A DNA stretch of 5,272 bases from Candidatus Mcinerneyibacteriota bacterium. GTDB taxonomy: Bacteria; AUK180; JAQVHJ01. Shown here in pieces: positions 2,708-5,272 of the stretch. Every line of letters starts with the position of its first letter. Position 1 is the stretch's first letter. Position numbers and translations under genes: made by a program. The notes beneath the pieces were generated by a model. That model saw only the letters and a list, made by a program, of their open reading frames with translations. It had not been told where the DNA came from and searched no databases. Location of the stretch: assembly GCA_030630935.1 (NCBI GenBank), contig DAOVMD010000246.1:1-5272 (forward strand), written 5' to 3'.

Positions 2708-3322
2708 TTAATTTCCTAATGTATTTTTTATCCAAGTGATTATTTCAGTCCAGAAAAAGAATTTCACAGACATTATTATAAAAAGAGCGATTACAGTTCT
2801 TAATGTACTCTTCTCTGACTTAAAAGCTTTTTTAAAATTATATTTCCCTGTCGAGGATCCCTTGCAATTGAATTTTGGAAGAAATCTGGGGACATGTTTT
2901 TGATATTCTAAGTATTCTTCTCCGAATTTTTTTATCAGCAAATCTTCTTCCCAGAGAACAATAGGGATATATTGAACAAAAAACATAATAAAGAATATTA
3001 TTAAAAACCACCATTTTCCAGAAAGGCAGCTAAAACCAAGAGATAGAATAAAATTACCAATATATAAAGGATTACGTACACAATTGAAAGGACCACTTGT
3101 TACTAATTCATCTACTGAACCCTTTCTTGTCCTTGAAATTCCACCTATATAAGCAACTGCAACTACTCTGATTGTTTCACCAATTATTGTTAAACCAATT
3201 GCAATTGAAAACCAGATAAAATTAAAGTTTCCAACGTAGATTAAGAGCAGAATTAGTGGAATAGGTGTATAATCTCTATATCTAAAAAACCAATGTCCAA
3301 TTTTTAATATTAAATTTTTCAT
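2708..3322 (-). CDS. Integral membrane methyltransferase, ICMT/PEMT (isoprenylcysteine/phospholipid methyltransferase) family
   Basis: This 204-aa membrane protein belongs to the SAM-dependent isoprenylcysteine carboxyl/phospholipid methyltransferase family. The hallmark is LVTSGPFNCVRNPLYIGN at 73-90, followed by the second conserved block WEEDLLIKKFGEEY at 124-137 and the VPRFLP ending at 144-149. Hydrophobic segments lie at about 20-31, 34-60, 86-100 and 104-123. After FLP the protein continues for 55 residues, with an AFKSEKSTLR string at 166-175 and another hydrophobic helix at about 176-192. Bacteria lack prenylated CaaX proteins as a rule, so the acceptor is more likely a lipid or isoprenoid, but it cannot be named from sequence. 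The start at 3322 has a weak AAGAGA-type site close upstream. It is the first gene of the operon, about 14 nt from the predicted transcription start. Confidence 0.88.
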   Translation of the reverse strand: MKNLILKIGHWFFRYRDYTPIPLILLLIYVGNFNFIWFSIAIGLTIIGETIRVVAVAYIGGISRTRKGSVDELVTSGPFNCVRNPLYIGNFILSLGFSCLSGKWWFLIIFFIMFFVQYIPIVLWEEDLLIKKFGEEYLEYQKHVPRFLPKFNCKGSSTGKYNFKKAFKSEKSTLRTVIALFIIMSVKFFFWTEIITWIKNTLGN

Positions 3323-3651: not shown

Positions 3652-3680
3652 TTGACATCATTATTTATATATGTTATAAT
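3652..3680 (+). promoter_or_regulatory. Consensus sigma70 promoter with extended -10 for the TPR gene
   Basis: TTGACA at 3652-3657 and TATAAT at 3675-3680 both match the consensus at all six positions and are separated by the ideal 17 nt. TGT at 3672-3674 adds an extended -10 element. Transcription would start near 3686-3688, giving a leader of about 32 nt that contains AGGAGG. This predicts strong constitutive expression unless a repressor acts. Confidence 0.88.
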
Positions 3681-3700: not shown

Positions 3701-3706
3701 AGGAGG
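3701..3706 (+). promoter_or_regulatory. Ribosome binding site AGGAGG of the TPR gene
   Basis: A full AGGAGG lies 12 nt before the ATG at 3719, slightly farther than usual. A second in-frame ATG follows at 3728 but would be 21 nt away, so 3719 is preferred. Confidence 0.8.
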
Positions 3707-3718
3707 AATACATAAACT

Positions 3719-5272
3719 ATGGATGATATGCAAGAAAAAATCAATGAATATTTAAATGAACTTCAACATGATCCATCCTCAACTATATTTGCTAAATTAG
3801 CTGATGCGTACCGGAAGAATGGTGATTATGATCCTGCTTTAAAAGTTGTAGAAGAAGGTATTCAAAAGAATCCGGAATTTATCAAAGGCTGGATAGTCTG
3901 GGGAAAAATCCTTGCTGATTCCGGACGTAATGATGATGCAATTGATAAATTTAAGAAGGTTACGGAACTTAATTCCGATAATCTATCTGCATATTTATTC
4001 TTGGGTCGATTATACAAAAAAGTCAATAATCTTGAAAGTGCACTTGACTCATTTAACAAATCATTCAAACTTTCACCAGACGATGAAGATATTTTAGAAG
4101 AAATTGAAAATCTTAAAACTAAAATATCTGAACAAGGTTCTCCAAGTTCACCGGAACCGTCAACGGACGAAAAGATAGGTGAAGAATTTATTACACCGTC
4201 TATGGCAGAGGTCTTAGTTGAGAAGGGTGAATATGAAAAAGCCCTTGAAATTTATCAAAAAATACTAGCAACAAATCCGAATGATCAGAACATCACGAAT
4301 AAGATTGTAGAGTTAGAAACAAAATTGAAATCATCAGAGGAACCTCCACAGGTTAGCTCTGAGCAAAAACCTGAAGCTGACTTTGACGATATTTTTGCTG
4401 AGGAACTAGCTGGTGAGTCTGTAACAGGCGATACAACAGGTTCAGAATTAGAAGACTTATTTGAAGATTCTCCCGAAAAAAAATCTGAAGAACCATTATT
4501 TTCTTCAACTGAAGAACTTTTTTCAATGGAACCTGAAACGAAAGAAGAAGTTCCACTTCCTACTGGTGAAGATATCTTTACATCAGCTACAGATGAAAAG
4601 CCTGAAGATAACCAACCCCCGAGTGGAGATGATATATTCGGAACTTCAGACCAGCCGTTAACTGTTCCAGAACCAGAGCCCGAAGGAAAAACCTCATCAG
4701 ATGAGCTTTTTGATGAATTAAAAGCAGAAGACCAGTCAGTTTCTGAAACTAGCGAAGTTGATGATGCTTTAGATGATATATTCAGTGAACCAACTTCAGA
4801 TGAGAAACCTAAAGAAGATATTTTTACTGAAGAAATCCAGACTGAGAAACCTGTTGCAACAGATGATGCAATTGTAGATGAGGATTTTGAGGATTTGTTT
4901 GGTGATACATCTACTGATGCTAAAGAAGAAGTAGCTTTAGAAATTACAGAGGATTCAAAACAAACACCTGAAGAGGATGTTAAAGAAGGAAGTTTTGAAG
5001 ATATTTTTTCTGAAAGTTCAAAATCAGAAGAAACATTTGTTGAAGAAGAATCCACTTTAGAGAATAAATCCACAGAAGAACAATTTGAAGATATTTTTGG
5101 AGAGAAATTAGATCAGGAGGAGGCAGTTACTCCAGAAAAGGATATTTCAGGAGCACCCACAGAAGAACCTATCAAGGAAGAATCCACATCAGAAGAAGAT
5201 ATATTTGGTACCGTATCAGAAGAACCTGCTAAGGAAGAATCACCAACAGCAGAAGAAGATATCTTTGGTGCC
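3719..5272 (+). CDS. TPR protein with a long acidic tail of repeated (D/E)(D/E)(I/L)F motifs, 3' end cut by the window
   Basis: 518 codons are open from ATG 3719 to the window end with no stop, so the protein is partial at its C-terminus. There is no signal peptide or membrane segment, so it is probably cytoplasmic. Three TPR units lie at about 22-54, 55-88 and 89-122, with typical W/Y-LG-A-F-P positions (for example WGKILADSGRNDDAIDKF). A Pro/Ser linker follows, then a fourth unit at about 158-189 (MAEVLVEKGEYEKALEIYQK) and a short helix to 205. From about 206 onward the chain is very rich in Glu, Asp, Ser, Thr and Pro, looks disordered, and carries 13 DDIF/EDLF/EDIF-type motifs. TPRs bind peptides or proteins, so a scaffold or adaptor role is inferred; no partner can be named. 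Its own promoter and AGGAGG site predict strong expression, divergent from the methyltransferase operon. Confidence 0.9.
   Translation, partial: MDDMQEKINEYLNELQHDPSSTIFAKLADAYRKNGDYDPALKVVEEGIQKNPEFIKGWIVWGKILADSGRNDDAIDKFKKVTELNSDNLSAYLFLGRLYKKVNNLESALDSFNKSFKLSPDDEDILEEIENLKTKISEQGSPSSPEPSTDEKIGEEFITPSMAEVLVEKGEYEKALEIYQKILATNPNDQNITNKIVELETKLKSSEEPPQVSSEQKPEADFDDIFAEELAGESVTGDTTGSELEDLFEDSPEKKSEEPLFSSTEELFSMEPETKEEVPLPTGEDIFTSATDEKPEDNQPPSGDDIFGTSDQPLTVPEPEPEGKTSSDELFDELKAEDQSVSETSEVDDALDDIFSEPTSDEKPKEDIFTEEIQTEKPVATDDAIVDEDFEDLFGDTSTDAKEEVALEITEDSKQTPEEDVKEGSFEDIFSESSKSEETFVEEESTLENKSTEEQFEDIFGEKLDQEEAVTPEKDISGAPTEEPIKEESTSEEDIFGTVSEEPAKEESPTAEEDIFGA
4385..5272 (+). repeat. Array of thirteen four-residue acidic-aromatic motifs within the TPR protein
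   Basis: Motifs begin at residues 223, 245, 265, 284, 304, 328, 352, 366, 391, 427, 457, 493 and 513, reading DDIF, EDLF, EELF, EDIF, DDIF, DELF, DDIF, EDIF, EDLF, EDIF, EDIF, EDIF and EDIF. Spacing is mostly 19-25 residues, stretching to 30-36 in places. A further degenerate copy, EKDISGA (473-479), has Ser where Phe is expected. Codons vary among copies (GAT GAT ATA TTC, GAA GAT ATC TTT, GAG GAT TTG TTT), so the peptide motif is kept while the DNA has diverged. Spacers share only an acidic, Ser/Thr/Pro-rich make-up. Confidence 0.85.
5162..5272 (+). repeat. Near-identical in-frame tandem repeat of 57-60 bp at the window edge
   Basis: The unit EEPxKEES...EEDIFG occurs at 5162-5212 and again at 5219-5272, an offset of 57 bp, with one extra codon in the second copy. 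Most codons match between the copies, unlike the older motifs upstream, which suggests recent duplication by slippage or unequal exchange. The array probably continues past the window end. Confidence 0.75.

Follow-up and report, generated by a model that had tools for sequence, protein, structure and literature searches.

The gene that runs off the end of the window (the whole stretch of 5272 nucleotides analyzed here, which is one complete contig, G000:C244) carries a TPR head followed by a long linker studded with a short acidic motif, and both continue, on a second contig and in intact orthologues, into a C-terminal Roadblock/LC7 domain. The linker motif recurs at the C-termini of MglB proteins. 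The evidence leans, if modestly, toward placing this protein with the MglA/MglB system of bacterial Ras-like GTPases, and more specifically toward a scaffold for MglA that carries many MglB-like docking helices. The features of the gene and its 5′ signals are collected in Table 1.

Table 1. Features of the TPR–linker–Roadblock gene and its upstream region, in window coordinates
Feature	Position	Strand	Basis and remarks
5′ part (518 codons) of the TPR–linker–Roadblock gene	3719..5272	+	Open to the window end; 3′ part very probably G000:C84:2-1021 (L007/L068)
Consensus sigma-70 promoter, TTGACA-17-TATAAT, with TG before the −10	3652..3680	+	12/12 matches; consensus match only
AGGAGG, ribosome-binding-site-like	3701..3706	+	Sequence
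Folded TPR head, ~residues 1-205, with repeats at ~20-125 and 158-196	3719..4333	+	Pfam TPR; orthologue model; homology to heads elsewhere
Motif array, 13 copies of (phi)-x-D-(I/L)-F in an acidic linker predicted to be disordered	4385..5266	+	Sequence; disorder in orthologue
Start of a 20-residue/60-bp tandem unit (…EEPxKEES…EEDIFG…), with further units on contig C84	5147..5272	+	62% identity to C84

The preliminary description of this DNA counted 13 copies of [DE][DE][IL]F, and exactly that number is present in the open reading frame at 3719–5272 of the forward strand. The copies begin at residues 223, 245, 265, 284, 304, 328, 352, 366, 391, 427, 457, 493 and 513, spanning residues 223 to 516. 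Shuffling of the 296-residue tail in 20 000 trials gave a mean of 0.20 motifs and a maximum of four. Upstream of the array the TPR repeats are recognized by Pfam TPR_2 with an E value of 4e-21, and the contig ends inside the array. The codons differ between the motif copies, as had been remarked, with ATT, ATC, ATA, TTA, CTT and TTG used for Ile or Leu, TTT and TTC for Phe, and GAA, GAG, GAT and GAC for the acidic residues. The variation claimed for the spacers holds for the first 11 copies, where they have diverged, but not for the last two, which are part of a 20-residue tandem unit; these terminal copies are therefore recent duplicates. A tandem-repeat artefact alone is ruled out as the source of the first 11 copies, and of the arrays in other genera.

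The remaining frames of interest lie on the reverse strand. A Ser-rich ORF of 262 codons (4285-5073) is antisense to the array, and like frames lie opposite the arrays of relatives; these probably arise as a side effect of the codons for acidic residues. At 2708-3322 there is an ICMT/PEMT-like membrane methyltransferase with a weak likeness to Leptospira LmtA (79 bits against a cut-off of 325), and at 1280-2707 a DUF3108 protein with a signal-like N-terminus and a short TPR-like stretch. A 306-codon ORF at 412-1332 overlaps the end of the DUF3108 gene and is without a match in Pfam or NCBIfam.

The array was initially taken for a C-terminal acidic tail, but it is a linker with a Roadblock/LC7 domain at its far end. 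A second contig of this genome, C84, begins with sequence that matches the final repeats of the window. C84 opens with a 339-codon frame comprising a 60-bp tandem array, six more strict motifs and, after these, a Roadblock/LC7 domain (PF03259) that scores 43.9 bits against a Pfam gathering score of 23 (Pfam E value 1.9e-11); a gene for an M24 peptidase lies downstream. In the same class the TPR head, disordered acidic linker and Roadblock domain are found together in single ORFs of 745-889 codons in G002, G003, G004 and G006, representing three genera, and the same design is split over two contigs in a further genus (G005). The Roadblock/LC7 domain (PF03259) of the G004 orthologue scores 31.1 bits, above the Pfam gathering score. 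All the orthologues are located upstream of genes for an M24 peptidase, efp, accB and a DnaB-like ATPase, and the gene order of C84 matches. Given these intact single-ORF orthologues and the gene order that C84 shares with them, C244 and C84 very probably carry parts of one gene, with the TPR head and the Roadblock domain on two contigs in the window's genome. C84 and the intact orthologues rule out a free C-terminal tail. The number of motif copies here is at least 19 (13 in the window and six on C84, with any units in the gap not counted), and most of the six on C84 lie in the ~60-bp tandem array.

The DnaB-like ATPase (PF03796), whose gene lies downstream, a few genes on from that of the TPR–Roadblock protein, has a conserved N-terminal P(E/D)DLFAEF(I/V)K (L068:3168-5069; L062:7742-9499; L060, L061, L063). 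This peptide represents one motif-like copy, and the N-terminal stretch around it is charged.

The array is a general feature of the intact linkers. Relaxed motif counts are 12 in each of G002, G003 and G004 and seven in G006, where 0.5–1.0 would be expected. An AlphaFold2 model of the G004 orthologue, made from a shallow alignment of four sequences, has a helical head at residues 1–190 (pLDDT ~90), an unstructured region at 190–617 in which essentially all linker residues have pLDDT <50, and a folded region at 618–749 (pLDDT mostly 65–86). In a fold search with the whole model the matches were TPR proteins only, and they covered residues 1-139. The lack of structure in the linker and the Pfam TPR match bear out the earlier proposal that a folded TPR head is followed by a region that is disordered and carries the motif many times over.

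Such a molecule might in principle bind itself. The grooves of TPR domains commonly bind short acidic peptides, and in a sticker-and-spacer layout like this one the motifs could work within the protein: by docking in its TPR groove or on the dimer of its Roadblock domain, they would lead to self-association or condensation. The AlphaFold2 model of the intact orthologue orders no motif on either domain, which with so shallow an alignment is weak evidence against self-docking, and related TPR–Roadblock proteins that lack the array nevertheless retain the TPR head. We consider self-docking distinctly improbable.

The preliminary description held that its reading turned on whether the motif is better conserved than the spacers, and across genera the motif persists while the spacers are little different from shuffled sequence. 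Between genera the heads are 52–55% identical and the Roadblock domains 35–45%. With the motifs removed, spacer-only identity is 0.36, 0.43 and 0.38 in the three comparisons, against 0.35, 0.39 and 0.37 for shuffled spacers. In each linker Phe is preceded by I, L, V or M far more often than expected (P from 1e-5 to 1e-9 in G003, G004, G006 and the window). In the codon comparison of the close pair G002 and G003 the differences are too few for purifying selection on the motif to be seen, with nonsynonymous changes at 3/56 in the motif and 30/468 in the spacers (P = 0.18 counting gaps). All the indels between these two are in spacers, and acidic low-complexity expansions distinguish G002 from G003. 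Those expansions, together with the 60-bp tandem array (84% match) present both on C84 and where the window ends, are features that might be expected of a neutral spacer enlarged by tandem duplication, in which the motif is simply a passenger of the repeat unit. The cross-genus comparison argues otherwise, since the spacers are barely above shuffles and yet the Phe is retained in its motif context; so too does the confinement of the G002/G003 indels to the spacers. We regard a neutral linker, too, as distinctly improbable.

The four-residue motif first proposed is too short. A logo constructed from 54 linker copies gives (F/L)-(E/D/G)-D-(I/L)-F-(G/A/S). Position −4 is hydrophobic in 59% of copies compared with a background of 18%, position −2 is D in 46 copies and E in three, and position +1 is G, A or S in 69% against a background of 19%. 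These preferences extend the pattern to (F/L)-x-D-(I/L)-F-(G/A/S); the tandem copies of C84 depart from it in having mostly E or D at −4. The 54-copy logo conforms to the acidic phi-x-(D/N)-(L/I)-F pattern of the MglB Ct-helix type.

How common is that pattern in MglB itself? In a survey of 40 MglB-type proteins from 40 genomes, covering many bacterial families, 34 have [FILVM]xx[ILVM]F within their last 25 residues, compared with 2.0 expected and a maximum of seven in 2000 shuffles. The C-terminal variants include IDNLF, LDDIF and LEDIF, of which LDDIF and LEDIF are also spelled in the array. The C-terminus of Myxococcus xanthus MglB, SDDDIDNLFS, aligns with SDEDLNNLFN of the MglB-like protein of this class. 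This stretch of M. xanthus MglB is the Ct-helix, which is reported to bind MglA in a pocket to which alpha5 and the beta2–beta3 loop both contribute, and to stimulate nucleotide exchange on MglA (PMC6785124; also PMC11016934). MglB Phe157 and Asp154 contact MglA Lys181/Lys185, and a Glu-rich helix of RomR can substitute for the Ct-helix (PMC6785124). By analogy, docking of MglA by the linker motifs seems to us slightly more likely than not.

An MglA-type GTPase is present in six of the seven genomes of the class, that of G004 matching M. xanthus MglA with an E value of 1e-78. Wherever the sequence reaches, the class MglA keeps Lys181, Lys/Arg185 and Ile67, and Leu64 is Leu or Phe; in G001 the MglA gene is cut before alpha5. 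Where the contig extends far enough, MglA is clustered with genes for two Roadblock proteins, and a DUF4388 protein is encoded downstream. One of the Roadblock proteins ends in …FDFDSLMIDDLDDIF (or close variants) and the other in …LPSDEDLNNLFNW; the alignment of the latter with M. xanthus MglB extends through MglB's C-terminus. The divergent Roadblock protein beside MglA has an …IDDLDDIF/DDLF end in all six class genomes with the cluster. The end of this divergent protein is nearly invariant over a longer stretch, as …DFDSL(M/T)(I/V)DD(L/I)DD(I/L)F-stop (L069:3304-3888, L070:111-701, L071:2867-3451, L067:544-1065).

The motifs might alternatively be stickers for some other partner, either in the manner of the DnaJ-type DIF motif acting on Hsp70 or J-domains, or as a FliM/CheZ-like peptide that binds receiver domains, with the Roadblock domain a separate matter. 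Array copies such as FGDIFG and FDDIFG have what we take to be a resemblance to the DIF motif of the DnaJ G/F-region, and the genome's own DnaJ (L018:1222-2325) carries FGDIFEDIFGDFFG, a DIF-type sequence that resembles single array copies. Peptides of similar pattern occur in flagellar and chemotaxis proteins. The other matches to the DNA pattern of the motif in G000 are one contig with DnaJ and one without a motif-bearing ORF. Yet the J-domain and Gly/Phe-rich region that define the DnaJ context are lacking here; there is no J-domain match, and the sequence around the motifs is acidic and not Gly-rich. Moreover the protein is itself a Roadblock protein, Roadblock paralogues beside MglA have the motif at their C-termini, and there are array copies with N at −2 or L at −1, as in MglB. 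Another partner appears unlikely.

The MglA scaffold has its own difficulties. MglA was searched for in the window's genome, which is 80% complete, and was not found; the conserved oxidoreductase genes that flank the MglA cluster gave just a weaker, partial match there. In this class the TPR–Roadblock gene adjoins no MglA or MglB gene, and is instead in the efp/accB neighbourhood. The linker motifs are internal whereas that of MglB is C-terminal, and the two differ in the flanking positions, with F preferred at −4 and G at +1 in the linker, but I/L at −4 and S/N/K/R at +1 in MglB. The likeness to the DnaJ DIF motif also counts against it.

TPR–linker–Roadblock proteins are found in other families (L101, L102, L163, L169, L170 and L176). 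Both domains are identified by Pfam in five of the six; in L163 the TPR is identified by Pfam and the Roadblock by similarity to the G000 domain. In this best case both domains are homologous to those described here, the L163 protein matching the window head with an E value of 2e-34 and the G000 Roadblock domain with 3e-11. The gene adjoins that of an MglA-type GTPase in L170 and L176, whereas its neighbour is an aroB-like gene in L101 and L102. Unlike the class proteins, these relatives have none or one motif-like copy in their linkers, four of those outside the class having one each (TDEDIF, DSDIF, AEDIL and TEDIL). No motif array was found outside this class among the inspected Roadblock-bearing long ORFs from 386 sampled genomes. 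Some clusters outside the class bring the TPR–Roadblock gene together with additional Roadblock genes and an MglA that is greatly extended at its C-terminus (L170:525-3743; L097; L176:620-3185).

The architecture has no NCBIfam model, and we found no description of a TPR–Roadblock motif array in open-licence papers. The earlier opinion that no such system had been described therefore stands for the multi-copy array within that literature, but must be qualified in that the motif matches the MglA-docking helix of MglB, and TPR–Roadblock proteins are found in further families. MglB (M. xanthus, PDB 6IZW; T. thermophilus MglB), the GAP/GEF of MglA, shares the Roadblock/LC7 domain and an acidic, helix-forming (I/L)-D-(N/D)-(L/I)-F, which in M. 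xanthus is the part that docks on MglA (PMC6785124). MglB is however a small, single-domain GAP coupled to mglA with one C-terminal motif, whereas the present protein is uncoupled, with an added TPR head, a long linker repeating the motif internally at least 19 times, and the Roadblock domain at its C-terminus. RomR of M. xanthus has a disordered region and an acidic C-terminal helix that replaces the MglB Ct-helix in vitro (PMC6785124), but it has a receiver domain and a single helix, and neither TPR nor Roadblock. SgmX, by its description a TPR effector of MglA, is similar in being a TPR protein that works with MglA (PMC7519303), and differs in that neither a Roadblock domain nor a motif array is reported for it in the available part of that account.

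How might an MglA scaffold of this kind function? The Roadblock domain may pair with itself or with MglB-like proteins, and each linker motif could dock in the alpha5/beta2–beta3 pocket of MglA. The array would then gather many MglA molecules, or hold MglA near its regulator by repeated weak rebinding, and the TPR head would bind a client or site. More tentatively, the protein could be a small-GTPase hub, in which some 10–20 MglB docking helices between the TPR head and the Roadblock domain concentrate or repeatedly recharge many MglA molecules at one place; the array would have grown from the single motif of the TPR–Roadblock proteins of other families. We view this as possible, but somewhat less likely than not.

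MglA-type GTPases govern polarity and motility in bacteria, and Roadblock proteins uncoupled to MglA are largely uncharacterized. Whether or not the linker motifs dock on MglA, MglB proteins in our sample very commonly bear phi-x-(D/N)-(L/I)-F at the C-terminus as a signature, and a TPR–Roadblock family for which NCBIfam has no curated model is found alongside MglA in some lineages. If docking does occur, the linker would serve a bacterial Ras-like GTPase as a multivalent platform. It would also provide a testable rule, that an MglB C-terminal motif inside other proteins marks partners of MglA.
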